Below, piece by piece: positions 167 to 16,437 of a stretch of 50,547 nt of DNA. The first letter of the stretch is position 1. Each line of letters opens with the position of its first letter. This DNA is from Lachnospiraceae bacterium. Lineage in GTDB: Bacteria; Bacillota; Clostridia; Lachnospirales; Lachnospiraceae. The position numbers and the translations under genes were made by a program. The stretch covers positions 1-50,547 of the forward strand of contig JAEEUR010000005.1 in the NCBI GenBank assembly GCA_016290595.1, read 5' to 3'. The notes under the pieces were generated by a model. The model made no database searches, was not told the origin of the DNA, and saw only the letters and a list, made by a program, of their open reading frames with translations.

Positions 167-1102
167 TTACAGGCTTTCCTGCTGTGTCAGAGGCGTTGTA
201 AAAACGGTCTGAATGGTTCTTCCGTCGTTTGCCAGGCTCAGTTGGTTCTTTTTGTATTCATCTTTAATCAGAGCGATAAGACTGATGACGTAGGGAGAGA
301 GCGTCTCTTTTTTGCTGTACATGAAAGCATCCTGATAGTATTCTCCGACGTCAAATGAATCCAGATACTCTGCCATGTGGACAGCCCAGACTGTCGGACG
401 CGGCACAAAGGCTATACCCCGTCTTTCTTCAATACAGCGGGGAATGAAGTAGATGGAGTGTTTTTCCTGCGTTAAGAAACGCGGCTTGATGCCCAGACTT
501 TGACAGAGCAGCTGGGTATTGCGATACATATAGCTTCCGGGCGGATGAGAGATAAAGACCTGCTGCTGCAGAACTTCCGGTGTGATGGAATCCGCTTTTA
601 GCAATCCCTTCGGAGCAAAAAGAAGGATCTTGTTGTGTGCCAGAAGGGTTCTTTCATACTCGGGATTTTCAACAGCCTGGCCTGCCATCACAAGGTCATA
701 TCCGTCAAAAGAAAAGCCGTTGGCCGGATCCTGTGGCCTTTCATAGAGGACCTGCACGCCGGGATATTTTGATTTATACTGCTCTATGATCCGCATGACG
801 GTCTGACGGTGAAGGCAGAGCCCGATCCGGACGCATTCCTCTCTGACACTGGTTATAACGGCTTCGGTGGTCGAATCCAAAAGCTCCAGGGATTTTTGTA
901 CGCCCTGATAAAACATCTCACCTTGAGGGGAAAGCTGAATGCGGTTGGCAGAACGGATGAAAAGGGGAACATTCAGCTCGGACTCCAACCTTTTGATGCA
1001 CTGAGATATATTGGAAGGCGGTACAAAAAAAGTCTGTGCCGTTTTTGAAAAATTCAGGGTGGAAGCCGCATGACAAAAATATTTTAACTGAAGAAGATCC
1101 AT
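167..1102 (-). CDS. LysR-family transcriptional regulator
   Basis: This is a DNA-binding activator or repressor that senses a small ligand. Read from 1102 the protein is 311 aa, the usual LysR length. It starts MDLLQLKYFCHAA and has a winged helix-turn-helix over residues 1-60 (NFSKTAQTFFVPPSNISQ is the recognition region). A LysR substrate-binding domain follows from about residue 90. The ORF track starts 13 codons earlier, but the ATG at 1102 is preceded by GGGAG at good spacing and gives the normal family N-terminus. It is divergent from the peptide-type ABC importer, the classic arrangement for a regulator of its neighbour. The ligand is unknown. Confidence 0.9.
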   Translation of the reverse strand: MDLLQLKYFCHAASTLNFSKTAQTFFVPPSNISQCIKRLESELNVPLFIRSANRIQLSPQGEMFYQGVQKSLELLDSTTEAVITSVREECVRIGLCLHRQTVMRIIEQYKSKYPGVQVLYERPQDPANGFSFDGYDLVMAGQAVENPEYERTLLAHNKILLFAPKGLLKADSITPEVLQQQVFISHPPGSYMYRNTQLLCQSLGIKPRFLTQEKHSIYFIPRCIEERRGIAFVPRPTVWAVHMAEYLDSFDVGEYYQDAFMYSKKETLSPYVISLIALIKDEYKKNQLSLANDGRTIQTVFTTPLTQQESL

Positions 1103-1180
1103 TTTCCCAAGCTCCCGCGATAAGCCGATAACCGATGTCACTATATGTGAGTTTAACTATAACTGTAAAGTGATAGACAG

Positions 1181-1328: not shown

Positions 1329-2918
1329 ATGAAGAAATTGCTTCCCTTGTTCCTGGCTATGTTCATGATCATAGCGCTTGCTGCCTGCGGTGAAAACAAA
1401 CCGGACGATACTACCGCCGAACAGCGTACGGCCGCAGATCTGACTAACTTTTACAGTCAGCCGGCAGAAACAGCAAGTCCCACAGCCACCTTCAAGAAGG
1501 AGATCACCGTAGCGCACTGGCAGGCGATCGATTCTATCGATCCGTGCCTGAAGAACGGCAACGCCGCCGAATGCGTTTATAAGATGATCCACGGTCAGCT
1601 GGTAAACTATGACTGGATATCAGGAATACAGACCCCTGATCTGGCACTGTCCTGGGAAATTGAAAATGCGGCCAGCTACGTATTCCATCTGCGCCAGGGC
1701 GTGAAGTTCCACAACGGCGAAGAAATGAAGGCGGATGACGTCGTTTATTCCTTCGTGGAGCGGCCTGCCGCCGTTCAGGGCACTACCGGCACGGCTGTCT
1801 GGAACGAGATCGAGAAAGTCGAAGTGATCGACGACTATACGGTCCGCTTCATCCTCAAGGACAATGATGCCGACTTCATGAACCGCATCTATCTGGGCTA
1901 CTATCCCGTCTTGAACCGTAAAGCCTGCGAAGCCGATGCCGAAAAGGGCTACTACATTGGTACCGGCGGCTGGAAGATCGAAGAATTCAAGCCCAATGAC
2001 AGAGTGGTTTTCACCCGTTTTGACGATTCCTGGGTATGGAAAGAAAACGGCATGACCCCTACTGAAAAGGTGACGATGCGTTTCATCGAAGAGAGCACGA
2101 CCTATGCGATCGCTCTGCAGAACAAGGAGATCGCGGCGGCTTCCCAGATCGCATCCGTTGATCTGGCAGCCATTGAAGCATCCGGCGCCCACACGGTAAC
2201 GTATGAGGCAGAAAGCCTGTATTACATGATCTTCAACATGGCGAACGGAAAATTTGCCAACAGCGAAGATCTGCGCAAGGCCGTTGCCTATGCGATCAAC
2301 TATGAAGAACTCATCGATTACGCGACTGAAGGCCTCGGCTCCCGTGCTTATTCCATGTGGGGCAAGTCCCAGTATGGCCTGTTTGAAGACTTTGATGAAA
2401 AGTATGAATTCAATCTTGACAAAGCCAAGGAATACCTGACAAAAGCCGGTTATCCGAACGGTATCGAAGTCAAGCTACTGATCAAGGATAAGAACGTCGC
2501 GCCGCTGCTGCAGGCTCAGCTGAAAGCGGCCGGCTTCGAAGTCATCGTCGACGTGAAGGACACCGCCGGTGCGAATGCTGCCGTCAAGGAAAAAGACTTT
2601 GACCTGTATTACAACGGCATCACGCTTCAGCCCATCGGCGGACGCTTCGCCTTCATTCCGGATATCAAGCACTCCACCAACCGCGCCTTCTATGACAATC
2701 CCGACATGGTAGCGCAGTTTACCGCAGCGCAGAACGAAACTGACGATGCCAAGCGCAAAGAGATCTACAAGGAGATCCAGATCGAGATCAACAACGAGAT
2801 CCCTTATCTGGCTCTGTTCTATCCGGCTGCGTCCATCGCTTACTGCGACGGCGTTTCGGGCGTCCTTTGGGAACCGGACAGCAAACCGGACTACTCCGGG
2901 ATCCGCTGGGCGGAATGA
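1329..2918 (+). CDS. ABC importer substrate-binding lipoprotein (family 5)
   Basis: This is the extracellular solute receptor of a peptide/nickel-type ABC importer. The 529-aa protein begins with a lipoprotein signal peptide, and the lipobox LAAC places the lipidated Cys at residue 20. The mature part carries typical SBP_bac_5 features: WEIENAASYVFHLRQGVKFHNG near residue 110, DDVVYSF, and the late LRKAVAYAINYEEL block. A strong AAGGAGG lies upstream of the ATG. It is first in the operon with the fused permease and two ATPases. Family 5 covers di- and oligopeptides, nickel, opines and other substrates, so the exact ligand cannot be read from sequence. Confidence 0.93.
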   Translation: MKKLLPLFLAMFMIIALAACGENKPDDTTAEQRTAADLTNFYSQPAETASPTATFKKEITVAHWQAIDSIDPCLKNGNAAECVYKMIHGQLVNYDWISGIQTPDLALSWEIENAASYVFHLRQGVKFHNGEEMKADDVVYSFVERPAAVQGTTGTAVWNEIEKVEVIDDYTVRFILKDNDADFMNRIYLGYYPVLNRKACEADAEKGYYIGTGGWKIEEFKPNDRVVFTRFDDSWVWKENGMTPTEKVTMRFIEESTTYAIALQNKEIAAASQIASVDLAAIEASGAHTVTYEAESLYYMIFNMANGKFANSEDLRKAVAYAINYEELIDYATEGLGSRAYSMWGKSQYGLFEDFDEKYEFNLDKAKEYLTKAGYPNGIEVKLLIKDKNVAPLLQAQLKAAGFEVIVDVKDTAGANAAVKEKDFDLYYNGITLQPIGGRFAFIPDIKHSTNRAFYDNPDMVAQFTAAQNETDDAKRKEIYKEIQIEINNEIPYLALFYPAASIAYCDGVSGVLWEPDSKPDYSGIRWAE

Positions 2919-2949
2919 TCAGCTGACATTTCTTCTTTTCGCTCTGAAA

Positions 2950-2988
2950 AGACAGGCGGGGGGCGATGGGTTTCATCGTCCCCTGTCT
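2950..2988 (+). promoter_or_regulatory. Intercistronic hairpin after the binding-protein gene
   Basis: AGACAG and a GC-rich arm ending CGATG pair with CATCG and a C-rich arm ending CTGTCT, with a short GGTTT loop. No T-run follows, so it looks like an mRNA-stabilising or attenuating hairpin rather than a full terminator. Such a structure would keep the receptor more abundant than the permease. Confidence 0.45.
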
Positions 2989-3056
2989 GCTAAAAGGATT
3001 ATTACGGAAATTCAAGTATGAACCATCATTCGCTGAAAGGAGTCTGACATAACGGT

Positions 3057-5063
3057 ATGGGAAAATATATCCTAAAGCGTATCCTTTTAATGATTCCCGT
3101 TATCATCGGCGTATCCTTCATCATCTTTTTTGCCATGAACATGGCGCAGGGGGATTATCTGGATACCCAGGACCTGGGGGAACTCACGGCAGAGCAGATC
3201 GCAGCGCTCCGTGAATCCATGGATCTGGATAAACCCTTGCTGGAGCAGTATGCCAGATACATGTGGAGATTGTTCCACGGAGATCTGGGCAAATCCTATT
3301 CCGGCAACCGGGACGTTTTCCAGGCCTTTATGGAAAAGCTTCCCAGCACTATGTATCTGGGACTTGTCGCTTCGCTGATAGGAACTGTGGTTTCTATCCC
3401 GCTGGGCATTTTTGCAGCCCGGAAAAGAGGGACGCTCTTAGATAACATGGCCAGTGTGGTGGCAGTTTTCGGCCTGTCCGTGCCGAATTTCTGGTTCGGA
3501 CTGATGATCATGATTCTGTTCTCGCTGAAGCTGCACTGGCTGCCGTCCAGCGGCAACGATACCTGGATCTGCGTGCTGATGCCGGCTCTCACGGTCGGCA
3601 CCGCCAAAATGGCTGATTTGACCCGGACTACCCGTTCCACCATGCTTGATACGTTAACGCAGGACTATCTGCGCACCGCGCGGGCAAAGGGCGTGCCGGA
3701 GAAGACCGTCGTCAATAAACACGCTTTAAAGCCGGCCATGATCCCGATCCTGAACGTGACCATGAGCCAGCTGTCCAATGCGGTGGCCGGTGCGGCGCTG
3801 ACTGAGACCGTATTCGCCTGGCCCGGCGTCGGCAAGCTGGTGGTGGAAGCCGTCCAGCAGCGGGACATTCCCATGGCCTGCGGCTGCCTGATCCTGAAAT
3901 GTACGCTGATCGGCGTCATCGAACTGATCACGGACCTTCTGTTCGTGCTGGTCGACCCGCGGCTTCGGACGCACTACGCCGCAGCGGCGAAAAAGAAAAC
4001 TTCTTTCTTCAAGGCTATTAAAGGTGATTTCCAGGGAGCTGCCACGGCTATCGTCACCCTGCCGGACCGCATCAAGCGGGCAGTGGAAAACCATCGCAAA
4101 GACAGGGCGTTGGTGAAGAAGGAAAGAGAAGAGTGGAGAGCGGCAAAACAGAAAGCCAAAGAAAGGGCTGCCTCCGGACAGGAAAAACGTATCCTGGTCT
4201 CGAAGCAATATGCCAAGCGCAGTCTGGCGGGAGATATCTGGTATCGTTTCCGCCAGAACAAAGGCGCCATGATCGGTCTGTTTATCCTGCTTTTGCTTGC
4301 TTTAAACTGCATTTTTGCGGACGTACTCTATGACTATGACACGCAGGTCATCGGCTATGTCATGAAAGAGCGCCTGCAGCGTCCCAGTGCCGCACACTGG
4401 TTCGGAACCGATGATATCGGCCGTGATCTTTTTGCCCGTGTTATGTACGGGGCCCGCTACTCGCTGGCGATCGGCTTTGCAACGGTTGCTCTGTCGCTCG
4501 TTGTCGGTATGCCGATCGGTGCCGTCTGCGGCTTCTTCGGCGGGAAAGTTGACCTGCTGATCATGCGTGTTCTGGATATATTCCGGTCTATCCCCGGTCT
4601 GCTGATGGGCATCGTCGTCATATCCGCTCTGGGACAGAGCACACGCTCTCTGATCATCGCCATGGCAGTGTCACGATTCGTTGTGGTGGCCAATACCACG
4701 CGAACAGCCGTCATGACGGTCAAAAACAATGAATACGTGGAGGCGGCCCGTGCCATAGGCATGCCGACACGAAGTATTATCTTCCGGCACGTGGTGCCGA
4801 ACTGTCTGAGCCCCATCATCGTCCGGACGACCCTGCAGGTCGCAGGCGCGATCGTGGCGGCCTCTTCCTTAAGCTTCCTGGGACTTGGTGTTCCCGTTCC
4901 TTCACCGGAGTGGGGCGCTCTGCTCTCGGCCGGTCGCAGATTCGTTCAGAGCCACAGCTACATGACGGTCTTCCCGGGCCTTGCCATCATGATCACCGTT
5001 CTGGCCTTCAATATGGTGGGTGACGGCCTCCGCGACGCCCTGGATCCCAAGCTGAAGAAGTAA
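3057..5063 (+). CDS. Fused DppB-DppC-type ABC importer permease
   Basis: This membrane channel of the peptide-type importer is two permeases in one 668-aa chain. Residues 1 to about 310 are a DppB/OppB-type domain (MGKYILKRILLMIPVIIGVSFIIF start, EAA loop DYLRTARAKGVPEKTV, end FVLVDPRLR). Residues about 310-390 are a charged linker rich in Lys, Arg and Glu. From about 390 a DppC/OppC domain runs to the end (FRQNKGAMIGLFIL, HWFGTDDIGRDLFARVMYG, EAA loop EYVEAARAIGMPTRSI, end DGLRDALDPKLKK). The two halves are usually separate genes. The reading frame is unbroken and both EAA loops are intact, so the fusion looks functional. AAAGGAG precedes the start at a long spacing. Confidence 0.92.
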   Translation: MGKYILKRILLMIPVIIGVSFIIFFAMNMAQGDYLDTQDLGELTAEQIAALRESMDLDKPLLEQYARYMWRLFHGDLGKSYSGNRDVFQAFMEKLPSTMYLGLVASLIGTVVSIPLGIFAARKRGTLLDNMASVVAVFGLSVPNFWFGLMIMILFSLKLHWLPSSGNDTWICVLMPALTVGTAKMADLTRTTRSTMLDTLTQDYLRTARAKGVPEKTVVNKHALKPAMIPILNVTMSQLSNAVAGAALTETVFAWPGVGKLVVEAVQQRDIPMACGCLILKCTLIGVIELITDLLFVLVDPRLRTHYAAAAKKKTSFFKAIKGDFQGAATAIVTLPDRIKRAVENHRKDRALVKKEREEWRAAKQKAKERAASGQEKRILVSKQYAKRSLAGDIWYRFRQNKGAMIGLFILLLLALNCIFADVLYDYDTQVIGYVMKERLQRPSAAHWFGTDDIGRDLFARVMYGARYSLAIGFATVALSLVVGMPIGAVCGFFGGKVDLLIMRVLDIFRSIPGLLMGIVVISALGQSTRSLIIAMAVSRFVVVANTTRTAVMTVKNNEYVEAARAIGMPTRSIIFRHVVPNCLSPIIVRTTLQVAGAIVAASSLSFLGLGVPVPSPEWGALLSAGRRFVQSHSYMTVFPGLAIMITVLAFNMVGDGLRDALDPKLKK

Positions 5064-5076
5064 GGAGGAACGGAAG

Positions 5077-6084
5077 ATGGAGAAGAATATTGTTCTGGAT
5101 ATCAAACACCTGACTGTTACCTTCGAAGTGGAGGGCGACGTCATAGAAGCGGTCAACGACGTCAGCCTGACCGTCCGGGAGGGCGAGACCCTCGGCCTGG
5201 TCGGCGAGACCGGCGCCGGGAAGACGACCACCGCCCTGGCGGCGCTGCGTCTGGTCCCCGATCCGCCGGGCATCATCAAAAGCGGCGAGATCTTCGTCTG
5301 CGGGCACGACATTATGAAGGCGAAGACCAAAGAACTGGAAAAGATCCGGGGAGAGGAGATCTCCATGATCTTCCAGGATCCCATGACCTCCCTGAACCCC
5401 GTCTATACCGTTGGACAGCAGATCGCGGAATCCATTATCCTGCACCAGGGTCTTTCCAAGTCGGAAGCCATGAAAAAGGCCGGCGACATGCTGGAGATCG
5501 TGGGGATCCCGCGCAGCCGCGTGAACGAATATCCGCACCAGTTCTCCGGCGGCATGAAGCAGCGCGTGGTGATCGCGATCGCGCTGGCCTGCAATCCCAA
5601 GATGCTGATCGCCGATGAACCCACCACGGCGCTGGACGTGACCATCCAGGCGCAGGTGCTGGACCTGATGAAGAACCTGAAGGAAAAATACGGCACCGGC
5701 ACCATCATGATCACGCATGACCTTGGGATCGTGGCGGAAAGCTGCGACAGAGTCGCGGTCATGTACGCGGGCAGCATCGTGGAAGAGGGGACGCTGGAAG
5801 AGGTCTTCAACGACACCAAGCATCCTTACACGGAAGGTCTGTTCAATTCCCTGCCGAATATCGGCGACTATGATACCAAGCTGAAGCCGATCCCCGGCCT
5901 GATGCCCGATCCTTCCAAACTGCCGAAGGGCTGCGCGTTTGCGGAGCGCTGCCAGTACGCGACGGAGGCCTGCAGGGAGAAAAAACCGGAAACGCGGTCG
6001 TTCAGCGATACGCATTTCGTGAAATGCACGGCCTATGATGATCCGGGCTTCCATATCGAAAGGAAGGTAGTGTTCGATGAGTGA
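5077..6084 (+). CDS. Peptide-type ABC importer ATPase (DppD/OppD-like)
   Basis: This is one of two cytoplasmic ATPases that power the importer. In 335 aa it shows Walker A GETGAGKTT, the signature region FSGGMKQR, Walker B MLIADEPTTALD and the H-loop MITHDLG. A C-terminal oligopeptide/dipeptide extension has the Cys-containing pattern GCAFAERCQYATEAC seen in the OppD/F family, where it can bind an Fe-S cluster. The start has TAAGGAGG 13 bases downstream of the permease stop. It overlaps the next ATPase gene by 8 bases, indicating translational coupling. Confidence 0.93.
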   Translation: MEKNIVLDIKHLTVTFEVEGDVIEAVNDVSLTVREGETLGLVGETGAGKTTTALAALRLVPDPPGIIKSGEIFVCGHDIMKAKTKELEKIRGEEISMIFQDPMTSLNPVYTVGQQIAESIILHQGLSKSEAMKKAGDMLEIVGIPRSRVNEYPHQFSGGMKQRVVIAIALACNPKMLIADEPTTALDVTIQAQVLDLMKNLKEKYGTGTIMITHDLGIVAESCDRVAVMYAGSIVEEGTLEEVFNDTKHPYTEGLFNSLPNIGDYDTKLKPIPGLMPDPSKLPKGCAFAERCQYATEACREKKPETRSFSDTHFVKCTAYDDPGFHIERKVVFDE

Positions 6085-7033
6085 CGTGATCCTTGACGTA
6101 AGACATTTAAAAAAGTATTTCAGCACGCCCAAGGGGATGCTGCATGCGGTGGATGACGTCAGCTTTACCATCGAACGCGGCAAGACGCTGGGCGTCGTGG
6201 GCGAATCCGGCTGCGGCAAATCCACGACAGGGCGCTCCATTCTGCGTCTGATCAATCCGACCGCCGGAGAAGTCTTTTTCGAAGGCCAGGACATTACGAA
6301 GCTGACGGAGCGGGAGATGCGTTCCAAACGGAAGGAGATGCAGATCATTTTCCAGGATCCGTTCTCCTCGCTGGACCCGAGGCAGACCGTATTGCAGGCG
6401 ATCTCCGAACCCTTAAAGTTCAACAAAATCATGACAAACCGCTATGATCTGGAAGACCGCACGCTTCAGCTGATGCGGACGGTCGGCCTGGCAGAGCGCC
6501 TGATCAACACCTATCCCCACGAGCTGGACGGCGGCAGGCGCCAGCGTATCGGCATCGCCCGGGCGTTGTCCTTAAATCCCAAGTTTATCGTCTGCGACGA
6601 GCCGGTATCCGCTCTGGACGTCTCGATCCAGGCGCAGATCCTGAACCTTCTGGAGAAGCTGCAGGACGAGATGGGCCTGACCTATATGTTCATCACCCAT
6701 GACCTCGCGGTCGTCAACCATTTTGCGGATGACATCGCCGTGATGTATCTGGGGCAGCTGGTGGAAAAAGCTTCCGCCCGCGAGATCTTCAGCCATACGC
6801 TGCATCCGTACTCCAAGGCCCTCCTTTCCGCCATTCCCATGCCGGATACGCGGAAGAAGCAGGAGCGCATCATCCTGAAGGGTGAGATCAGCTCGCCGGT
6901 GGAGCCGAAGGACGAGTGCCGTTTTGCCAAGCGCTGTCCCTTCGCGACGGAAGCCTGCTGGGCTAAGAGTCCCGAACTGAAGCAAGTGGAGCCGAATCAT
7001 TTCGTAGCCTGCCATAATTACGACAAAATCTGA
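6077..7033 (+). CDS. Peptide-type ABC importer ATPase (DppF/OppF-like)
   Basis: This is the second ATPase of the importer, 318 aa. Walker A is GESGCGKST, Walker B FIVCDEPVSALD, and the H-loop is FITHDLAVV. The signature motif reads LDGGRRQR instead of LSGGQ, so the Ser that normally contacts ATP is Asp. The partner ATPase keeps SGG, which makes the paired nucleotide sites unequal. The C-terminal Cys pattern CRFAKRCPFATEAC is present. GGAAGG upstream supports the ATG at 6077. Confidence 0.92.
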   Translation: MSDVILDVRHLKKYFSTPKGMLHAVDDVSFTIERGKTLGVVGESGCGKSTTGRSILRLINPTAGEVFFEGQDITKLTEREMRSKRKEMQIIFQDPFSSLDPRQTVLQAISEPLKFNKIMTNRYDLEDRTLQLMRTVGLAERLINTYPHELDGGRRQRIGIARALSLNPKFIVCDEPVSALDVSIQAQILNLLEKLQDEMGLTYMFITHDLAVVNHFADDIAVMYLGQLVEKASAREIFSHTLHPYSKALLSAIPMPDTRKKQERIILKGEISSPVEPKDECRFAKRCPFATEACWAKSPELKQVEPNHFVACHNYDKI

Positions 7034-7083: not shown

Positions 7084-7959
7084 ATGGAATGGTATGAAGA
7101 TTGGATGCGGAACCGCTCCGAGACCTATAATAAAAAGCATGAGGAATTCTATGCGCAGCCTTCGACGGAGTTCATCGAACCTTTCCGTATCGCGGATGAT
7201 CTGTACTACGTGGGAGACCGGCTGGTCTGCATCCATCTGATCCGGACGGGGGAAGGCCTGATCCTGCTGGATGCGGGTTATCCCTGCGCCAAGCATCTCC
7301 TGATGGAGAGCATCCTGCGGCTGGGCTTTTATCCGAAGGACGTCAAGTGGATCATTCTGACGCACGCGCACAGCGATCATTTCGGCGCCTCGAACGAGTT
7401 CCGCAATCTGTACGGAACCAAGGTGGCACTCAGCGCGGCGGACGCGCAGTCCATCAGAGAGTATCCGTTCCGCGCTTCCAGCAGCCCGACCCTTAAGCTC
7501 CCGGTGATCGATAAGGAGATCGCGGACGGAGAGATCTTTTCTTTCGGCGGAAAGGAGATCCGCTGTGTCCTGACGCCCGGCCATACGCTCGGCGTCATGA
7601 GCTTCTTCTTCAACGTCACAGATCAGGGGAAAACGTATCTGGCGGGCCTTTACGGCGGCGCCGGCGTAGCGGCGCTGAGACTTCCGTACGCTCTCCACTT
7701 TAAGCTGCCGCACGATATGGCGCAGCGGATGATCGCGTCGCTGGACCGCGTGGAAGCCGAACCGGTCACGGTCCATCTCGGGAACCATCCTTACAACAAC
7801 CATACGCTGGAAAAACGGGAGAAGCAGCTGAAAGAAGGCGGCAATCCTTTTATAGACCCGACGAGCTGGCCGTCCTTTGTGGAAGACATCCGGCAGAAGA
7901 GCCTGAAGATCGCGGAAGAAAATGCCGCGCTGGAGAAACAGTATTGTATCGGTGAATAA
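7084..7959 (+). CDS. MBL-fold metallohydrolase, subclass B3-like (copy 1)
   Basis: This is a predicted cytoplasmic zinc hydrolase of 291 aa. The metal motif THAHSDHFGA (HxHxDH) is followed by GHTLG, which supplies the third His, and by a late HLGNH, as in subclass B3 enzymes. The bridging Asp common in other MBL branches is not visible. The C-terminus NPFIDPTSWPSFVEDI is shared with its two paralogues. The start at 7084 (MEWYEDWM) is preferred to the ORF-track start because GGGGAGAGGAGAAGG precedes it and copy 2 starts the same way. No signal peptide is visible, so a secreted beta-lactamase is unlikely. The substrate may be an amide, lactone or ester from the compound brought in by the importer. 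Confidence 0.85.
   Translation: MEWYEDWMRNRSETYNKKHEEFYAQPSTEFIEPFRIADDLYYVGDRLVCIHLIRTGEGLILLDAGYPCAKHLLMESILRLGFYPKDVKWIILTHAHSDHFGASNEFRNLYGTKVALSAADAQSIREYPFRASSSPTLKLPVIDKEIADGEIFSFGGKEIRCVLTPGHTLGVMSFFFNVTDQGKTYLAGLYGGAGVAALRLPYALHFKLPHDMAQRMIASLDRVEAEPVTVHLGNHPYNNHTLEKREKQLKEGGNPFIDPTSWPSFVEDIRQKSLKIAEENAALEKQYCIGE
7516..7665 (+). repeat. Near-identical segment, first member
   Basis: This 150-base stretch of copy 1 matches 8466-8615 of copy 2 with only six mismatches by eye, all synonymous. It encodes the C-terminal metal site. Surrounding parts of the two genes are less alike, which suggests recent gene conversion or strong constraint. Confidence 0.8.
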
Positions 7960-8027
7960 CGCTTTTCACCGGAGAAAAACACTGAAGTCCTGCAGAATCG
8001 CAAAAGAAAGTCGAGGAAGGCAAATCA

Positions 8028-8900
8028 ATGGAATGGTATGAGAAGTGGATGCGTCAGCATAACATGGCTTACGACAAGAAACACCGGGACTTTTACGCGG
8101 AGCCGTCCATAGAGTTCATAGAACCGTTCAAAATAGCGGACGATCTGTATTACGTGGGGGACCGTCTGGTCTGCATCCATCTGATCAGGACGGATGAAGG
8201 CCTGATCCTGCTGGACGCTGGGTATCCGTGTACGAGGCATCTCCTGATGACAAGCATCCTCCGTCTGGGCTTCCAGCCGAAAGACGTTAAATGGATCATC
8301 CTGACGCACGCGCATTTTGATCACTACGGCGCGGCCAACGAATTCCGCCGCCTCTTCGGCACGAAGGTCGCGATGAGCATTGCGGATACGCAGTCCATGC
8401 GGGAGCTGCCTTCGCGTGCGACGCGCGGCCCGGATTATAATTTCCGTATGCCGGTCATCGACCGGGAGATCGCGGACGGAGAGATCTTTTCCTTCGGCGG
8501 AAAGGAGATCCGCTGCGTCCTGACGCCCGGCCATACGCTCGGCGTCATGAGCTTTTTCTTCAACGTCACGGATCAGGGAAAAACGTATCTGGCGGGCCTC
8601 TACGGCGGCGCCGGCATCAATGCGCTGAAGCTGCCGTATCTTCTTTATCATAAGCTGCCGCTGGATATGGCGCAGCGGATGGTGGCGTCGCTGGACTGCG
8701 TGAAAGCCGAACCGGTCGTCGTCCATCTGGGCAACCATCCGTACAACAATCATACGCTGGAAAAGCGCGAGAAGCAGCTGAAAGAAGGCGGTAATCCCTT
8801 CATTGATCCGGAAAGCTGGCCTTCCTTTGTGGAGGATATCCGGCAGAAGAGCCTGAAGGTCGCGGAAGAAAACGCCGAACTGGAGAAACAGTATCTCTAA
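8028..8900 (+). CDS. MBL-fold metallohydrolase, subclass B3-like (copy 2)
   Basis: This tandem paralogue of the preceding gene has 290 aa. It shares MEWYE at the start, THAHFDHYGA for the HxHxDH site, GHTLG, and HLGNHPYNNHTLEKR near residue 235. The region between the first metal site and GHTLG diverges most (PSRATRGPDYNFRMP against PFRASSSPTLKLP), so the paralogues may differ in substrate pocket. The start has GAGGAAGG upstream. It lies 68 bases after copy 1 and 56 bases before the MFS gene. There is no signal peptide. The substrate is unknown. Confidence 0.85.
   Translation: MEWYEKWMRQHNMAYDKKHRDFYAEPSIEFIEPFKIADDLYYVGDRLVCIHLIRTDEGLILLDAGYPCTRHLLMTSILRLGFQPKDVKWIILTHAHFDHYGAANEFRRLFGTKVAMSIADTQSMRELPSRATRGPDYNFRMPVIDREIADGEIFSFGGKEIRCVLTPGHTLGVMSFFFNVTDQGKTYLAGLYGGAGINALKLPYLLYHKLPLDMAQRMVASLDCVKAEPVVVHLGNHPYNNHTLEKREKQLKEGGNPFIDPESWPSFVEDIRQKSLKVAEENAELEKQYL
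8466..8615 (+). repeat. Near-identical segment, second member
   Basis: Partner of 7516-7665. The encoded peptide, including the GHTLG metal ligand and LAGLYGGAG, is identical in both copies. Confidence 0.8.
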
Positions 8901-8956
8901 GCCGGACGCGCACAAAAAAACGGGAAGGGCCGGCGGCTCTGTAGAGAGCGCGGAAT

Positions 8957-10201
8957 ATGAAAAAAACCATTAAAAAACATTATCACTGGATCATCGCGGC
9001 GCTGGTGTTTCTGGAGATGATCGTTTTTGGCGGCCTGCTGAACAGTTCGGGCGTTTACGTTCAGCCGGTCAGCAGCGATTTTGGCATCAGTACGACGACC
9101 CTGGCGGTCGCCGGGATGCCTTATACCGTGCTGGCTTTCATCAGCACCTGCGTTTCCGGCTTTTTGTTCAGCCGTTACGGCTACAAAAAAGCAGCGATAG
9201 TCTCTTTGCTGCTGGTATCTTCGGCGCTGGCGCTGTCATCTGCCGCCGGGAATATTTTCGTTTACGGAGTCGGCCGGGCCCTGTACGGGATCGGCCGAGG
9301 CGCTATCTTTACGGCAGGCGCCGTCTGGCTTGTCAAAAACTGGTTCCGGAAGCATCAGGGGGCGGTCCTTGGAGCCGTGACCATGGCCTCCGGCCTGGGC
9401 GGCAGCCTGATGACCGTCCTTCAGACGCATATTATTGAGACGGCAAACTGGCGGAGCGCGCAGCTGACGATGGCCGCCATTCTGGCGGGGATCGCTCTTT
9501 TGTACTTTCTTCTGAAGGATCGGCCGGAGCAGATGGATCTGCTGCCTTACGGATATGGCGCTGCGGAAGAAGCGAATAAGAAGATCCGGCCGGAAAACTG
9601 CTTCCGCGGCTATCCCTTAAAGGAGCAGCTGAAGCGCCCGCTGTTTTATCTGATGTGTCTGTGTACGTTTTTCGGCTCGGCCTGTCTGCTCACCACCAGC
9701 ATTTACGTGGTCCCCCACTTCAGAAGCCAGGGCTTTACTGCCTATGAGGCGGCTGCCTATCAAAGCGTATTTATGCTGACGCTGGCTGCGGCCAAGCTGC
9801 TGATCGGGATCGCGCACGACCGTTACGGGGCGAAGTTCGTGATGATCGTGTGCATGCTCTGCGGGGCGGCCGGACAGGCAATCCTGGCCTATACGACGAA
9901 TCCGCTGCTGTGCTATGCGGCGATGATGATCTTCGCCGTCGGCCTGTGCATGACGTCTTTGTCGATCCCGCTGATCTCGGCTTCGCTGTTCGGCTATGAA
10001 GGCTGCCAGAGCGTCAACGGCATATTTCTGGGACTGGCGTCCCTGTCGAACCTGCTTGCCAGCCCGATCAGCGGACTGAGCTATGACGCCTACGGAAGCT
10101 ACGTTCCGATCTACAGAATAACTTCCGTCATCCTGCTGGGCATGCTCGGGGTCTATCTTCTGATGTTCTCCCTGGCACGGAAAGAGCAGGAAAAGCAATA
10201 G
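8957..10201 (+). CDS. MFS transporter (organic-anion type)
   Basis: This is a 414-aa major facilitator protein with about 12 hydrophobic segments, the first starting near residue 10 (HWIIAALVFLEMIVFGGLL). The inter-helix signatures SRYGYKKA and HDRYGAKF are the conserved MFS loops in the two halves. SSGVYVQPVSSDFGIS after the first helix resembles the oxalate/formate and monocarboxylate-type subfamily. It sits between MBL copies 2 and 3, so it probably carries the substrate or product of those hydrolases. Direction and ligand are not readable. The ATG at 8957 gives a normal Lys-rich MFS N-terminus, though its RBS is weak. Confidence 0.85.
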   Translation: MKKTIKKHYHWIIAALVFLEMIVFGGLLNSSGVYVQPVSSDFGISTTTLAVAGMPYTVLAFISTCVSGFLFSRYGYKKAAIVSLLLVSSALALSSAAGNIFVYGVGRALYGIGRGAIFTAGAVWLVKNWFRKHQGAVLGAVTMASGLGGSLMTVLQTHIIETANWRSAQLTMAAILAGIALLYFLLKDRPEQMDLLPYGYGAAEEANKKIRPENCFRGYPLKEQLKRPLFYLMCLCTFFGSACLLTTSIYVVPHFRSQGFTAYEAAAYQSVFMLTLAAAKLLIGIAHDRYGAKFVMIVCMLCGAAGQAILAYTTNPLLCYAAMMIFAVGLCMTSLSIPLISASLFGYEGCQSVNGIFLGLASLSNLLASPISGLSYDAYGSYVPIYRITSVILLGMLGVYLLMFSLARKEQEKQ

Positions 10202-10242
10202 AATAAGCCAAAGGCTTTGTTTTCAAAGAAAGGAGGCTTTTT

Positions 10243-11112
10243 ATGACATTTGAGGAAAAATACGCGGCCAGGGTGGCGGGAAAGGTGGAATTCTACCGGG
10301 ACCCTTCTCTGTATGCCTGCGAGCCGTTCCGGATCTTCGGCCCGCTCTATTACGTGGGAGATAAGAAGGTCTGCGTTCACCTGATCGATACCGGAGAGGG
10401 ACTGGTCCTGATCGATTCCGGCTACACGCATACGATCCACATGCTGGTGGATTCGATCTGGCGGCTCGGCTTTGATCCGAAGCAGATCCGCTATATCGTT
10501 CACACGCACGGACACCACGACCATTTCGGCGCTTCGAATGAATTCCGCCGTCTGTACGGCTGTGATCTCGTGATGAGCGAAACGGACGCGGAATATCTGA
10601 AAGTGAATCCGGATTTCTCCTTCCTGCAGTTCTGCAGCTACACGCCGCTGGCCTATATTCCGCCCGAATTCCAGAAGACCTTAAAGGACGGAGAAGACTT
10701 CATCTGCGGCAATCTAAAGATGCACTGCGTATCGATCCCGGGGCATACCCCCGGCGCCATGGCCTTCTTCTTTGACGTGACGGAGGACGGCCGGACCTTC
10801 CGGGCAGGCCTTTTCGGCGGCGCGGGCCTTTTTTCCGCCTCGAAGGAAGCGCTGGAGCATTACGGCGAGCCGATGTCGCTGCAGCAGGATATGCTGGCTT
10901 CAATCGAAAAAGTCCGCGGAGAACGGGTGGAGATCCATCTGGGCAACCATCCGAGCCACAACGCGACCTTTGCCAAGCGTACCCGGATGCTGCAGGGAGA
11001 GAAAGACGCTTTTATCGATCCGCCGTCGTGGAACCGTTTTCTGGACGAGACCCGGGATAAGTTCCTCCGAATGTTCGCGAAGGAAGCCGCGGAAGGAAAG
11101 GAGACCCCTTGA
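10243..11112 (+). CDS. MBL-fold metallohydrolase, subclass B3-like (copy 3)
   Basis: This is the third paralogue, 289 aa and more diverged than the first two. It keeps THGHHDHFGA for HxHxDH, GHTPG for the third His, HLGNH near residue 233 and the C-terminal FIDPPSWNRFLDE block. The strong RBS AAAGGAGG precedes the ATG. Its stop overlaps the TTG start of the dehydratase alpha gene, so it is coupled to that enzyme. The coupling suggests it makes the acid that the dehydratase uses, or acts just after it. This is inference from layout. Confidence 0.85.
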   Translation: MTFEEKYAARVAGKVEFYRDPSLYACEPFRIFGPLYYVGDKKVCVHLIDTGEGLVLIDSGYTHTIHMLVDSIWRLGFDPKQIRYIVHTHGHHDHFGASNEFRRLYGCDLVMSETDAEYLKVNPDFSFLQFCSYTPLAYIPPEFQKTLKDGEDFICGNLKMHCVSIPGHTPGAMAFFFDVTEDGRTFRAGLFGGAGLFSASKEALEHYGEPMSLQQDMLASIEKVRGERVEIHLGNHPSHNATFAKRTRMLQGEKDAFIDPPSWNRFLDETRDKFLRMFAKEAAEGKETP

Positions 11113-12026
11113 TCAGCAGAGAGATCTATGAAGAAGCCATCTTCCGGGCGATCTGCCGCGGATCTGCGGTGATCGCGCCGGACGTGTGCCGCGCTTTTGA
11201 GAAGGCGATCGAAAAGGAAGGCCGTCCGGCCGCCCGGGAAGGTCTGGAAAAGACCTATGAAAGCATCAAGCTTTCCGCTGAAAGGCGGAATCCGGCGTGT
11301 CCGGATACCGGCTGGCCGATTTTCTATTTCAAAGTGGGCAACGAGTGCGAGCTGGAAGGAGGTTTTATGGCGCTGGAGGAGGCGGTCCGGAACGCGGTAC
11401 GCCGCGCGACGAGGGAAGGCTTTCTGCGCGCCACCATGAAGCATCCGCTGACCGGCTACGATCCGGGCGACAACATCGGAAACAATATCCCGGACTTCAC
11501 CTATCAGTTCGTTCCGGGAAAAGACATCGAGATCACCTACGTGGCCAAGGGCGGCGGCAGCGAATGCTTCGGCGGGACCCGCCACCGGGTGGTCGCGTTT
11601 GCCGACGGCATCAGGGGGATCGAGAAATTCGTCATTGATTCCTTTGTGGAAGCGACCCGCTCGGGCGGCATCTGCCCGCCGAATATCCTGGGCATCGGGA
11701 TCGGCGGAACGGCGAATATCGCCGCCAATCTGGCCAAGGAGGCCGCCTGCCTCAGGACGGTCGGCTCCCATAACCCGGACGAGCTTTTCCGCCGGATAGA
11801 AGAGGATCTGTATACGAGCCTGAATAAACTGGGCGTGGGCGTGATGGGCGTCGGCGGCGACACCAGCGTGTTTGCGGTCAACGTGGAGTATGCCTATACC
11901 CACATCGCCGGGATCTGCGTGGCGATCAGCAGCAACTGCATGGTGGCCCGCAGAGGAAGCGTCCACGTGGGCGCGGACGGCTCCGTTCGGGATATGGAAA
12001 GCCCGAACTGGTTTGAAGGACGGTGA
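11109..12026 (+). CDS. Class I fumarase/tartrate dehydratase-type alpha subunit
   Basis: This is the iron-sulphur subunit of a hydro-lyase that removes water from a hydroxy-dicarboxylic acid such as malate or tartrate. The 305 aa align by eye with TtdA and the FumA N-terminal domain. All three expected cluster-ligand Cys contexts are present: NPACPDTG (about 60), GGGSECFGG (about 155) and GGICPPN (about 195). HPLTGYDPGDNIGNN is also typical. The start is TTG, with AAAGGAG eight bases upstream and overlapping the previous stop. The beta subunit follows with a GTGA overlap. Whether the substrate is fumarate/malate, tartrate or another acid cannot be decided. Confidence 0.9.
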   Translation: MISREIYEEAIFRAICRGSAVIAPDVCRAFEKAIEKEGRPAAREGLEKTYESIKLSAERRNPACPDTGWPIFYFKVGNECELEGGFMALEEAVRNAVRRATREGFLRATMKHPLTGYDPGDNIGNNIPDFTYQFVPGKDIEITYVAKGGGSECFGGTRHRVVAFADGIRGIEKFVIDSFVEATRSGGICPPNILGIGIGGTANIAANLAKEAACLRTVGSHNPDELFRRIEEDLYTSLNKLGVGVMGVGGDTSVFAVNVEYAYTHIAGICVAISSNCMVARRGSVHVGADGSVRDMESPNWFEGR

Positions 12027-12658
12027 CGGATATGGCGACGTTTCATTTAAAATCCCCCCTTTCGCAGCAGGACGTGGAACAGCTGAATATCGGAGACGTG
12101 GTCTATATTTCGGGCGACGCCTTTACCTGCCGCTCCCGTCTGCATCGCTGGGTCCTGGATGAAAACCATCCGCTTCCCGAAGCCGGCCGGGCGCGGGACG
12201 TTCTGATCCACGTCGGGCCGATCGTGCTGCATCAGCCGGACGGCAGCTGGAAGCTGGTATCCTTCATGCCGACCTCCAGCATCCGTTTTGAAAAATGGGG
12301 CGCCCGCGCGGTAGACGAGTGGGGGCTCCGCCTGATCGTGGGCAAGACGACCATGGGAGAGGAGACCATGGCCATGATGCAGAAGAAAAAATGCGTCCAC
12401 GTTTCGCCGCATTCCGTCAGTCCGAACGCCTGGGTGGACCATATCCGGATCACGGGCGTGGAGCTTCTTAAGGAACTGGGAAGCATTGAAGCGACCTGGC
12501 ACATGACGGTGGACGAGCTCGGACCCTTCGTAGTGGATATCGACTGCAGGGGAAACAACCTGTATAAGAACCACGAAGAGGAAGTGGACGAAAACCGCCG
12601 GAAGGTCCTGGAAGAGCTGGGGATCGGCCCCGACTTCTCCTATACAAAACTGTACTAG
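12023..12658 (+). CDS. Class I fumarase/tartrate dehydratase-type beta subunit
   Basis: This is the partner subunit of the preceding gene, 211 aa, matching TtdB and the FumA C-terminal domain. GDVVYISGDAFTCRSRLHR near residue 25 is the family's substrate-binding loop, although the usual SGxIxTxRDxAH pattern is altered (RSRLH). VGKTTMGEETM and a C-terminal DCRGNNLYKN are also visible. The GTG start overlaps the alpha stop by four bases (an in-frame ATG at 12032 is an alternative). The loop variation hints at a non-standard substrate. Confidence 0.87.
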   Translation: MTDMATFHLKSPLSQQDVEQLNIGDVVYISGDAFTCRSRLHRWVLDENHPLPEAGRARDVLIHVGPIVLHQPDGSWKLVSFMPTSSIRFEKWGARAVDEWGLRLIVGKTTMGEETMAMMQKKKCVHVSPHSVSPNAWVDHIRITGVELLKELGSIEATWHMTVDELGPFVVDIDCRGNNLYKNHEEEVDENRRKVLEELGIGPDFSYTKLY

Positions 12659-12670
12659 GCAGGTGTGAAG

Positions 12671-14032
12671 ATGAAAGAATTTCGTATTCTCTCGCCTACG
12701 GGGATCGTAGGCTACGGATTCCCCGAGGAATCCTTTGCGGCAGGCGTGGCGCTGAAGCCGGATCTGATCGCCTGCGACGCCGGTTCCACGGATCCGGGCC
12801 CGTATTATCTGGGAAGCGGCATCCCCTTTACCAACGATACGGCCGTCAAAAGAGATCTGACGCTGATGCTGAAGGCTGCGTGCGAACTGCACGTCCCGCT
12901 GATCGTCGGGTCGGCCGGCGGTTCGGGCGCCACGCCCCATCTGGAGAGGGACGTCAGGATCGTCCGGGAAATCGCGCGGGAGCAGAAGCTGTCCTTTAAG
13001 CTGGCCGTGATCTCGGCGGAATTCGAAAAGGACTATCTGCTGGAGGCGCTCCGCGCCGGCAGGATCGAAAAGCTGGGACCGGCTCCCGAGGTGACGGAGG
13101 AGGATATCCTTGCCAGCACGCATATCGTGGCACAGATGGGGATCGAGCCCATCATGCGGGCTCTTGACGACGGCGCGCAGGTCATTATCTGCGGCCGCTG
13201 CTACGATCCCGCGGCCTTTGCCGCGCTGCCCGTCTGGCTGGGCTATGACAAGGCGCTGGCGCTGCATCTGGGCAAGATCCTGGAATGCGCCGCGATCTGC
13301 GCCACGCCCGGCAGCGGAAGCGACTGCATCATGGGATATCTGGGAGAGGATTACTTCTGCGTGGAGCCGCTGAATCCGGAGCGGAGATGCACGCCGGCAT
13401 CGGTCGCCGCGCACACCCTGTACGAGAAGAGCAATCCGACCATCCTTCCCGGTCCGAGCGGTCATCTGGATCTGAACGAATGCCGCTTCACCGCCGAAAA
13501 CGAACGGCGGGTGCGCGTAACGGGCTCCCGCTTCGTTCCGGAACGGATCCCCTCCGTGAAGCTGGAAGGCTGCAGGCAGGCCGGTTTCCGGACCATCTCC
13601 ATCTGCGGCAACCGGGATCCGATCTTTATTTCCCAGGTGGAAGATATCCTGAACGATCTGAAGAAACGCACGGCGGCGAACCTGTCTGCTGATTTCGAAT
13701 ACCAGCTGGATTTTATCGTCTACGGAAAGAACGGCGTGATGGGAGCGCTCGAAACGGCGGACCGCATCACGTCGCACGAGATCGGCATCGTCGTCGACGC
13801 TCTGGCCGATACGCAGGAGCACGCGTCGGCGGTCTGCTCGGTCGCCCGCTCCACGCTGCTGCATTACGGCTATCCGGGACGCATCGCGACGGCGGGCAAC
13901 CTGGCCTTTCCGTTCTCGCCGTCGGACATCAAGGTCGGGCCGGTGTTCGTTTTCAGCGTCTATGCCCTGCTGCGGGACGAGGATCCGGCTTCGTTATTTA
14001 AACGCAGCTATGAGATGATCGGGGAGGAGTAA
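12671..14032 (+). CDS. AtuA-family (DUF1446-type) protein
   Basis: This 453-aa protein resembles the acyclic-terpene-utilization AtuA N-terminal family: GTDPGP-like AGSTDPGPYYLGSG near residue 38, GSAGGSGATPHLERD near 80 and ICGRCYDPAAFAALP near 175. The family occurs in catabolic clusters, usually beside a DUF4387 protein as here, but its reaction is not established. ATG 12671 has GGCAGGTG just upstream; the GTG at 12665 is the other option. It follows the dehydratase beta gene by about a dozen bases and is three bases from the DUF4387 gene. A role in the same acid-degradation route is likely. Confidence 0.8.
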   Translation: MKEFRILSPTGIVGYGFPEESFAAGVALKPDLIACDAGSTDPGPYYLGSGIPFTNDTAVKRDLTLMLKAACELHVPLIVGSAGGSGATPHLERDVRIVREIAREQKLSFKLAVISAEFEKDYLLEALRAGRIEKLGPAPEVTEEDILASTHIVAQMGIEPIMRALDDGAQVIICGRCYDPAAFAALPVWLGYDKALALHLGKILECAAICATPGSGSDCIMGYLGEDYFCVEPLNPERRCTPASVAAHTLYEKSNPTILPGPSGHLDLNECRFTAENERRVRVTGSRFVPERIPSVKLEGCRQAGFRTISICGNRDPIFISQVEDILNDLKKRTAANLSADFEYQLDFIVYGKNGVMGALETADRITSHEIGIVVDALADTQEHASAVCSVARSTLLHYGYPGRIATAGNLAFPFSPSDIKVGPVFVFSVYALLRDEDPASLFKRSYEMIGEE

Positions 14033-14035
14033 GCC

Positions 14036-14353
14036 ATGAAATACTGTCTGAAAGAGGTGGCCGCCGTTATCCGGTCCAAGAACGCGGGACCTTACGAGCT
14101 GACGCTGGACGTCATGCTGAAGGACCGGGAGACATTCGACAGGCTGAAAGAAGCGGATGTGATCAATAAGAAAACGATCGCCGCTCTTTACCATATCCCG
14201 GAGGAAGACGTGCTTTCCATCATCTACTTCCCGAACGCGCTGGCCATAAAAGCCACCATCGTCCGTCCCCTGCCGTCCGGCGCCATCGGAGAGCGGGACG
14301 TATACGGCGCGCAGCAGCACGCCCCGCTTGTGAATTTCACCTTTGAGATGTAG
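14036..14353 (+). CDS. DUF4387 family protein, AtuA partner
   Basis: This 105-aa protein follows the AtuA-like gene at a three-base gap. GGAGG overlaps the end of that gene and serves as RBS. Landmarks are AAVIRSKNAGPYELTLDVML at residues 9-28 and a C-terminal GERDVYGAQQHAPL. This small family is regularly found as the partner of AtuA proteins and may form a complex with them. The function is not known. Confidence 0.75.
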   Translation: MKYCLKEVAAVIRSKNAGPYELTLDVMLKDRETFDRLKEADVINKKTIAALYHIPEEDVLSIIYFPNALAIKATIVRPLPSGAIGERDVYGAQQHAPLVNFTFEM

Positions 14354-14386
14354 AATAGGAGCAGTTCGGGAACAGGGGAGGAAGCG

Positions 14387-15286
14387 ATGCTGATCGTTCT
14401 GGAGCAGGTTTTGATATTGGTTTTTTCCGCGGCGGCGGGCTATGCGCTGTGCAAAGCGGGAAAGCTGGACAGTGCTCATGCAAGGACCCTGTCCGCCCTG
14501 CAGGTCTACATATTCCTGCCGTGCACCCTGTTCAACACCTATTCCACGCATTTTACGATCCCCTACATCCGGGAGAAATATACGCTGCTGCTGACCTCCT
14601 TCGTCATGCTGCTGTTCATGGTCGTGCTGGGCGTCGTTCTGGCAAGAGTCGTGACGAAGCAGCCGTATCTCCGAAGTGTATACCGCTACAGTCTGACCGT
14701 TTCCAATTACGGGGGCTTCGGCTACCCGCTGATCAGCGCGCTCTACGGCTCTCTGATGCTGCAGAACTGCATGCTTTTTTCGATCCCGATCTCGCTGTAC
14801 ACCTATACGGCCGGTTATGCGGAACTGACAAAAACCGGTTTTTCTTTAAAACGGCTGCTGAATCCGGTGATGACGGCCATCCTTCTGGGCGCCGCCGTCG
14901 GCCTGACGGGACTGAAGCTGCCTGCCTTCGTGACCGGCGTCGTCAGCAAGTTTGCGGCCTGCATGGCGCCGGTCGGGATGCTGACGGTGGGCATGGTGGT
15001 GTCGGAGTTCGACCTTCTCAGACTGCTGAAGAATAAGAAGAACTATCTGATTATCGCGCTCCGGCTGCTCGTCATCCCCTGCGCGGCGGTCGGGATCCTG
15101 AAGCTGTTAAAGCTGGAGGAGTGCGTCATCCCGGCGCTGATGATGTACGCGATGCCCTGCGGGATGAATACCATCATCTTCCCGCGGCTGGTGGGAGAGG
15201 ACTGCGAGACGGGCGCGGCCCTGACGCTGATCTCAAGCGTCCTCGCCTGTCTGACGATCCCCTTCTGCTTCGGTCTTTTTACCTGA
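14387..15286 (+). CDS. AEC-family (auxin efflux carrier-type) transporter
   Basis: This 299-aa membrane protein has about ten hydrophobic helices in two halves. Its opening ILVFSAAAGYALCKAGKLD and the LPCTLFNTY segment fit the AEC family, known in bacteria mostly for malate, malonate and related organic anions. A second-half landmark is MPCGMNTIIFPRLVGED near residue 255. A good RBS (GGGGAGGAAG) precedes the ATG. It lies between the AtuA/DUF4387 pair and the M20 hydrolase, consistent with exporting or importing an acid of this pathway. Confidence 0.85.
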   Translation: MLIVLEQVLILVFSAAAGYALCKAGKLDSAHARTLSALQVYIFLPCTLFNTYSTHFTIPYIREKYTLLLTSFVMLLFMVVLGVVLARVVTKQPYLRSVYRYSLTVSNYGGFGYPLISALYGSLMLQNCMLFSIPISLYTYTAGYAELTKTGFSLKRLLNPVMTAILLGAAVGLTGLKLPAFVTGVVSKFAACMAPVGMLTVGMVVSEFDLLRLLKNKKNYLIIALRLLVIPCAAVGILKLLKLEECVIPALMMYAMPCGMNTIIFPRLVGEDCETGAALTLISSVLACLTIPFCFGLFT

Positions 15287-15315
15287 GCACTGTTCGGCAG
15301 CAGAGAGGAGTGAAA

Positions 15316-16437
15316 ATGCAAGACTGGATCAATAATTATTTCGATACGCACGTGGAACTGCTGAAGACCCTGGCGGCGATCCCTTCCCCTTCCCATCATG
15401 AAGAAAGGCGCGCCGCTTTTATCAAAGACTGGCTGGATCAGGCCGGTGCGCAGGGCGCTTATATCGATGAAGCCAAAAACGTGATCCTGCCTTTCGCCGT
15501 CGAAGGCCGGAATGATATCACGGTCTATATGGCGCACACGGACGTCGTCTTCCCCGACGAGACGCCGCTGCCGGTCCGGGAAGAGGACGGCATCCTGTAC
15601 GCGCCCGGCATCGGTGACGACACCGCGAACGTCGTGGGGATCCTGACGGCCGTCAAGTATATCCTGGAGCACGGCCTTCAGCCGAAGGAGCCGGTCCTGC
15701 TGGTCCTGAACAGCTGCGAGGAAGGCCTGGGCAATCTGGACGGGACGCGCCGGATCATGAAGGATTTTGCCGGCCGCATCAAGGAACTGATCTCCTTCGA
15801 CGGGTCGTATCAGTCCATGATCGTAAGAGCGGTCGGCTCCGAGCGCTGGAAGGTGAGCTGCCGCACGGTCGGCGGCCATTCCTACAGCGCCTTCGGCAAT
15901 CCCAACGCCATCCACCACCTGGCGAAACTCATAAACCGCTTCTATGAACAGCCCATGCCCGACTGGGCGGATCAGAAGACGACCTACAACGTGGGAGTGA
16001 TCTCCGGCGGCACCTCCGTCAACACCATCGCACAGGACGCCGAGATGCTTTACGAATACCGCTCCGACGACCGGAAAGCCCTCCGCTTCATGCATGATCA
16101 GTTCTTCCGCATCCTGGAAGAGTGCGAGAGCGCCGACGCGCATTTCGAAGCGGAACTGCTGGGCGAGCGTCCCTGCAACGGAGAGATCGATCCCGAAGCC
16201 TGGGAACGCCTGCTGTCCCGCTGCGGGAAGGTCATTACGGAAACCGTCGGAAAGCCGGTCGCGCGGCGTTCCGCCTCTACGGACGCCAATATCCCGCTGT
16301 CGGTCGGCGTGCCGGCCACGACCTTCGGCCTGTATCTGGGAGGCAAGGCACATACCCGCGAGGAGTGGCTGAATATTGAATCTTTACGGACGGGGCTGCC
16401 GATCGCCATCCGCCTGATCACCTCGCACTTTGCCTGA
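15316..16437 (+). CDS. M20-family metallo-amidohydrolase/peptidase
   Basis: This 373-aa zinc hydrolase belongs to the family of ArgE, DapE and carboxypeptidase G2. Metal-site motifs are visible in order: MAHTDVVFPDE (His and Asp, near residue 75), GIGDDTANVVG, NSCEEGLGN with the catalytic and bridging Glu pair, and FDGSYQSMI. The dimerisation domain covers GGHSYSAFGNPNAIHHLAK. The ORF track starts 65 codons too early inside the AEC gene; ATG 15316 has AGAGGAG upstream. It would release an amino acid or acid from an N-acyl or peptide bond, fitting import by the upstream ABC system. Confidence 0.87.
   Translation: MQDWINNYFDTHVELLKTLAAIPSPSHHEERRAAFIKDWLDQAGAQGAYIDEAKNVILPFAVEGRNDITVYMAHTDVVFPDETPLPVREEDGILYAPGIGDDTANVVGILTAVKYILEHGLQPKEPVLLVLNSCEEGLGNLDGTRRIMKDFAGRIKELISFDGSYQSMIVRAVGSERWKVSCRTVGGHSYSAFGNPNAIHHLAKLINRFYEQPMPDWADQKTTYNVGVISGGTSVNTIAQDAEMLYEYRSDDRKALRFMHDQFFRILEECESADAHFEAELLGERPCNGEIDPEAWERLLSRCGKVITETVGKPVARRSASTDANIPLSVGVPATTFGLYLGGKAHTREEWLNIESLRTGLPIAIRLITSHFA

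Follow-up and report, generated by a model that had tools for sequence, protein, structure and literature searches.

Organization of the locus

The window analysed here is the whole 50,547-nucleotide stretch of contig JAEEUR010000005.1 (assembly GCA_016290595.1) from a Lachnospiraceae bacterium. A preliminary description of this DNA reported a co-directional run holding three MBL hydrolases, an MFS carrier, a hydratase pair, AtuA, DUF4387, an AEC carrier and an M20 amidohydrolase, preceded by a peptide-type importer and a LysR gene. ORF calls and Pfam searches agree with that account, and all of the genes named in the run (7084–16437) are intact and co-directional. The LysR regulator (167–1141, reverse strand) is divergent and lies upstream of the run. 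The auxiliary peptide-type ABC importer (SBP5, fused DppB-DppC, DppD and DppF) occupies 1329–7033 on the forward strand, as do all genes that follow. Its 668-aa ORF at 3057–5063 is a fusion of DppB and DppC, which are separate adjacent genes in paralogous and same-genus loci.

Downstream of the importer lie two B3-like MBL hydrolases with the Pfam MBL fold, MBL1 (7084–7959) and MBL2 (8028–8900), an MFS carrier (8957–10201; PF07690) and a third B3-like hydrolase, MBL3 (10243–11112; PF00753). These are followed by a class-I-fumarase-type [4Fe-4S] hydratase of what we call the Fum305 subfamily, with alpha (11109–12026; PF05681, 235 bits; TIGR00722 above cut-off) and beta (12023–12658; PF05683) subunits. 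The next two genes encode an AtuA-family protein (12671–14032, with GTG 12665 as a possible start), resembling CmlA, the large chain of a citramalate-lyase-type lyase, and a DUF4387 protein (14036–14353; PF14330, 137 bits) resembling the small chain, CmlB. Two genes auxiliary to these, for an AEC-family carrier (14387–15286; PF03547, Mem_trans) and a DapE-like M20 amidohydrolase/peptidase (15316–16437; PF01546 and PF07687), complete the run.

Gaps among the 14 forward-strand genes range from -8 to 138 bp, and the following gene is 165 bp away. Two overlaps had been proposed within the run. The first stands: MBL3 and hydratase alpha share 4 bp (TTGA), and the TTG start of alpha fits the conserved N-terminus of its relatives. 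The second, in which alpha and beta would overlap by GTGA, is less certain since relatives align to an alternative beta start at ATG 12032. Promoter and terminator scans returned counts near chance level. A weak terminator-like hairpin is located at 10205–10217, between the MFS and MBL3 genes; such sites occur here at chance frequency.

A four-gene core recurs in gut Clostridia

Gene neighbourhoods were assessed by scanning genome contigs with an AtuA alignment and comparing ORF families and gene orders across the 80 loci recovered. Methylaspartate ammonia-lyase (MAL) is found in 58 of these loci, GlmE in 55, MutL in 49 and GlmS in 43, and the associated DUF4387 family has 75 members, that of the window included. 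MAL-linked loci usually follow the order GlmS-MutL-GlmE-MAL-AtuA-DUF4387, and 26 of the 58 also carry a class I fumarase. The near relatives of the window (L017–L031) have hydratase alpha and beta adjacent to AtuA and DUF4387 in 15 of 15 cases, and glutamate-mutase genes are absent. Most of these loci belong to MAGs of Oscillospiraceae and Lachnospiraceae, and ruminant guts are a frequent source.

A separate search with hydratase alpha, covering 391 genomes of the class, recovered 11 members with at least 62% identity besides that of the window, one of them cut by a contig end; an additional short fragment was left out. AtuA and DUF4387 lie beside the hydratase in 10 of these 11 genomes, and the AtuA proteins found in this way form a second clade that is not sister to that of the window and falls outside the group of MAL-linked proteins and the solved structure 9ERQ (see below). 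That this hydratase is paired with AtuA proteins of two non-sister lineages speaks for a functional link. The conserved core consists of four genes, hydratase alpha, hydratase beta, AtuA and DUF4387, and it recurs in many gut Clostridia. Co-occurrence of the hydratase and the AtuA/DUF4387 pair was anticipated in the preliminary description, which had included the MBL hydrolases as well; the latter do not share in it, as an MBL gene is found near the core in only 1 of 92 related loci (L018). The MFS, AEC and importer genes are likewise missing from the surroundings of the core in relatives.

Other genes do adjoin the core in relatives. An M20-type amidohydrolase of another subfamily than that of the window is present at 14 of 28 loci (at least 44% identity), and other neighbours include CapA-like, M81, AXE1, PTE-like and amidohydrolase proteins, where the CapA-like label reflects one Pfam match and the PTE-like label the appearance of the N-terminus. 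These varied hydrolases make a hydrolysis step before the core plausible but unproven. In one relative (L031) the core continues into genes for 2-oxo-acid dehydrogenase E2, E3 and E1, and in another (L185) a TRAP-type transporter is located nearby.

The AtuA/DUF4387 pair resembles a citramalate lyase

The AtuA/DUF4387 pair had been described as having no established reaction. This is not borne out by the PDB structures 9ERQ and 9EVF, a complex whose two chains were deposited under the name citramalate lyase, CmlA being of the AtuA family and CmlB of the DUF4387 family. The window AtuA matches 9ERQ_A over its full length with 56% identity (243/436; E=1.5e-155), and the window DUF4387 matches 9ERQ_B over its full length (E=1e-26). 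Across 83 homologues, AtuA has 53 near-invariant polar positions, and the window protein keeps the conserved polar residues common to 9ERQ and the MAL-linked homologues. The citramalate lyase assignment of 9ERQ/9EVF rests on the depositors' molecule names and on gene context: 9ERQ_A shares 92% identity (401/437) with ECs_0760 of E. coli O157, a protein that is annotated there as 3-methylaspartate ammonia-lyase and is encoded in a locus with glutamate mutase, methylaspartate ammonia-lyase and fumarase genes. This locus was described by Kronen and Berg, who left open what becomes of citramalate (PMC4682846). Literature searches turned up no publication on 9ERQ/9EVF or the gene combination seen here. 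The pair does have an assigned reaction, of the citramalate lyase type, with citramalate cleavage by the window proteins being predicted here from homology.

The AtuA tree places the window and its nearest loci (L017–L031) in one clade (SH-aLRT 100) with no MAL neighbours. With midpoint rooting, one hydratase-linked AtuA clade lies on either side of 9ERQ, and the clades closest to that of the window are the MAL-linked ones. Citramalate is favoured as the substrate because the window AtuA is thus bracketed by 9ERQ and the MAL-linked clade.

One residue nevertheless hints that the natural substrate may not be citramalate. At position 13, the 60 citramalate lyases that are MAL-linked or solved all have Ala, and Gly stands in the window clade, in the second hydratase-linked clade and in the other AtuA groups sampled, which makes this residue a marker for pathway-linked members, although not a proven defining feature. 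Positions 223, 321 and 378 of the window clade also differ from the MAL-linked majority. The core might accordingly act on a 2-substituted malate other than citramalate, yielding acetate and another 2-oxo acid; with the pockets of both hydratase and lyase diverged, the side group would be larger or differently charged, as in a plant organic acid, for example. The varied hydrolases beside the core in relatives would also fit such a substrate. Set against this, the window clade has only nine clade-specific substitutions, none adding charge; the solved citramalate lyase has the same residue as the window at positions 223 and 378; and the four positions changed in both hydratase-linked clades are no more than chance could produce (P about 0.14). 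We regard another malate as a serious but less probable substrate than citramalate.

Some pairs have other surroundings. AtuA/DUF4387 genes lie beside ABC importer and ADP-ribosylglycohydrolase-like ORFs (by eye) at two loci (L012, 9787–11517; L013, 8298–10088), and distant pairs lie beside a membrane transporter of ~430 aa, CitMHS-like by eye, at three more (L014, L015 and L016).

The hydratase belongs to a distinct subfamily

Cys 64, 189 and 277 of hydratase alpha occupy the positions of the Fe-S cysteines of TtdA, and the best named model matches of the pair are fumarate hydratase and TtdB. An L-tartrate dehydratase or an ordinary fumarase sharing no pathway with the adjacent AtuA/DUF4387 would be in line with these names. 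However, all equivalog scores are below their cut-offs, with alpha at 153.6 against 365 (TtdA) and beta at 141.7 against 264 (TtdB), and the L-tartrate dehydratase label is ruled out on this basis. In many genera the hydratase lies next to an AtuA gene, drawn from two separate clades, and the genome has a second Fumerase gene elsewhere; both points also argue against such an independent enzyme, which we consider very improbable. An ORF neighbouring this second gene (L118, contig C93) is MmgE/PrpD-like by eye.

Compared with the MAL-linked mesaconases, the hydratase has 31–37% identity in alpha and 20–30% in beta. In the alpha tree the window subfamily forms its own clade on a long stem, apart from the MAL-linked mesaconases; branches are long, so the exact placement of the subfamily is unsure, and the row for the second fumarase of the genome was disregarded as a probable wrong pick. 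The beta subunit carries FMPTSSIRF and GKTTMG in all 26 clade members examined, whereas MAL-linked mesaconases have GPTT..R (23 of 25) and GK[GC] (25 of 25) at the positions of the MPTSS and GKTT motifs. The position of the hydratase outside the MAL-linked mesaconase clade, its low identity and its altered beta motifs count against the reading favoured below, and the motifs would suit the other-malate reading. In a different genome (L196), hydratase alpha/beta genes (37%) are found upstream of GlmS-MutL-GlmE; no MAL or AtuA was found there.

Uptake and hydrolysis genes recur apart from the core

MBL1 and MBL2 are 83% identical, and MBL3 is about 46% identical to both. All three contain the TH.H.DH, PGHT and LGNHP motifs and keep the six B3 metal-ligand positions (H116/H118/D120/H121/H196/H263). 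Scores against the curated subclass B3 model are 151, 158 and 168 bits, under its cut-off of 240 bits, so the proteins are termed B3-like, as they had been before, and not called B3; the label of canonical B3 beta-lactamase is ruled out by the same cut-off. The MFS carrier has a distant likeness to the lactate and oxalate/formate groups, with all NCBIfam scores below cut-off, and those of the M20 protein are below cut-off as well.

Relatives of these genes occur in other combinations. The genome of the window has a fourth MBL gene (contig C84, 6766–7626), 68% identical to MBL3 and placed between two Dpp importer sets, along with SBP and M20 genes, where lyase genes are absent. In same-genus genomes, an 89% identical copy of MBL1 adjoins an MFS gene, and a 73% identical copy of the AEC gene heads a Dpp-MBL-M20 island (L158) whose MBL is 69% identical to MBL3. 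MFS-MBL pairs also recur alone (L157 and L160). The importer, MBL, M20, AEC and MFS genes thus recur without the core, which indicates that the window joins separately recurring sets. The cluster is a composite of the core and a separate uptake and hydrolysis set, which is not conserved together with the core, contrary to the single conserved route in which the MBLs, MFS, AEC and importer had previously been placed. The neighbours of more distant MBL relatives are TRAP-like transporters or genes for sugar-acid aldolases and dehydrogenases; at two loci (L163 and L164) B3-like relatives lie beside HpcH/HpaI aldolase and Ldh_2 genes, where a lactonase-type role is suggested.

For the whole run, a single dedicated pathway had been proposed: the MBL and M20 hydrolases would cut an imported conjugate, and the freed hydroxy acid would then be dehydrated. 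The co-directional genes with short gaps, the overlap of MBL3 with the hydratase and the M20 amidohydrolases that adjoin the core in many relatives are consistent with it. The recurrence of MBL, M20 and importer genes and of the MFS-MBL pair without the core, together with the scarcity of MBL genes near it, point the other way, and the downstream lyase favours hydration. This pathway is therefore improbable as a whole: the hydratase-AtuA/DUF4387 unit on which it drew is conserved and M20 enzymes do recur, but the proposal left out the C-C cleaving lyase step and probably had the direction reversed.

Proposed reaction and substrate

The methylaspartate pathway of glutamate fermentation has been described (PMC8473912), and its mesaconase is a class I fumarase (PMC4682846). 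GlmE was not found in the genome of the window (assembly 96.6% complete), nor was a convincing match to MAL, since the weak partial PF07476 match of 28 bits is of a kind also seen in many control genomes. On these grounds the pathway is ruled out for this genome, and the core would have to obtain its substrate externally or by a different pathway. The attached peptide importer, three MBLs, MFS, AEC and M20 may supply this substrate.

We infer that the genes at 11109–14353 form a free-standing hydratase and CmlAB-type lyase that convert mesaconate or a close 2-substituted fumarate to acetate and a 2-oxo acid, and place the probability of this reading at roughly 60%. The heteromeric [4Fe-4S] hydratase would add water across a double bond, turning mesaconate into citramalate or a related 2-substituted fumarate into a 2-substituted malate; hydration is more likely than dehydration because a citramalate-type lyase lies downstream. 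The AtuA/DUF4387 complex would then cleave a C-C bond as in citramalate lyase, releasing acetate and a 2-oxo acid, which would be pyruvate if the substrate is citramalate. The reaction class is assigned with more confidence than the substrate.

A citrate-type substrate was considered since many relatives come from ruminant guts. The conversion of trans-aconitate via citrate to oxaloacetate and acetate has no charged lyase substitution in its support, and is kept only within the other-malate alternative. More tentatively, the MPTSS-type hydratase and AtuA/DUF4387 may constitute an undescribed catabolic route of gut Clostridia for a 2-substituted malate or fumarate, not citramalate, that neighbouring amidohydrolases free from a plant or microbial conjugate.

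The proposed reactions provide a testable reaction class for gut-bacterial genes that carry the annotations 'acyclic terpene utilization' and DUF4387, and distinguish a recurrent hydratase-lyase module from the glutamate pathway to which its relatives belong. Should citramalate not be the substrate, the module would indicate that herbivore guts break down an organic acid that has gone unrecognised.

Comparison with known systems

The window MBLs match the subclass B3 metallo-beta-lactamase BJP-1 (PDB 2GMN/3LVZ) over nearly the whole length, ligand positions included, but they sit in catabolic gene sets, score under the B3 cut-off and have no hydrophobic N-terminal stretch (by eye). L-tartrate dehydratase TtdAB is, like the window hydratase, a two-subunit class I hydro-lyase (29% identity in alpha, 32% in beta), although the window pair is far below the equivalog cut-offs and is without the tartrate carrier TtdT alongside. 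Mesaconases and class I fumarases such as FumD and clostridial MesAB share with it the two-subunit class I fumarase form and the three Fe-S cysteines, but the window falls outside the MAL-linked MesAB group, with MPTSS and GKTT replacing GPTT and GKG.

Of the methylaspartate pathway (GlmSE-MutL, MAL, mesaconase and citramalate lyase), the first two enzymes are missing, whereas the last two steps have counterparts in the window, the hydratase being drawn from another subfamily. CmlAB (9ERQ/9EVF) differs from the window pair in that the window has no MAL, GlmS or GlmE nearby and its genome no GlmE, and in that the two large chains, at 56% identity, belong to separate clades, with Gly for Ala at position 13. 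The two systems are nonetheless alike in both subunits over their full length, in the adjacency of the two genes and in their conserved polar residues.
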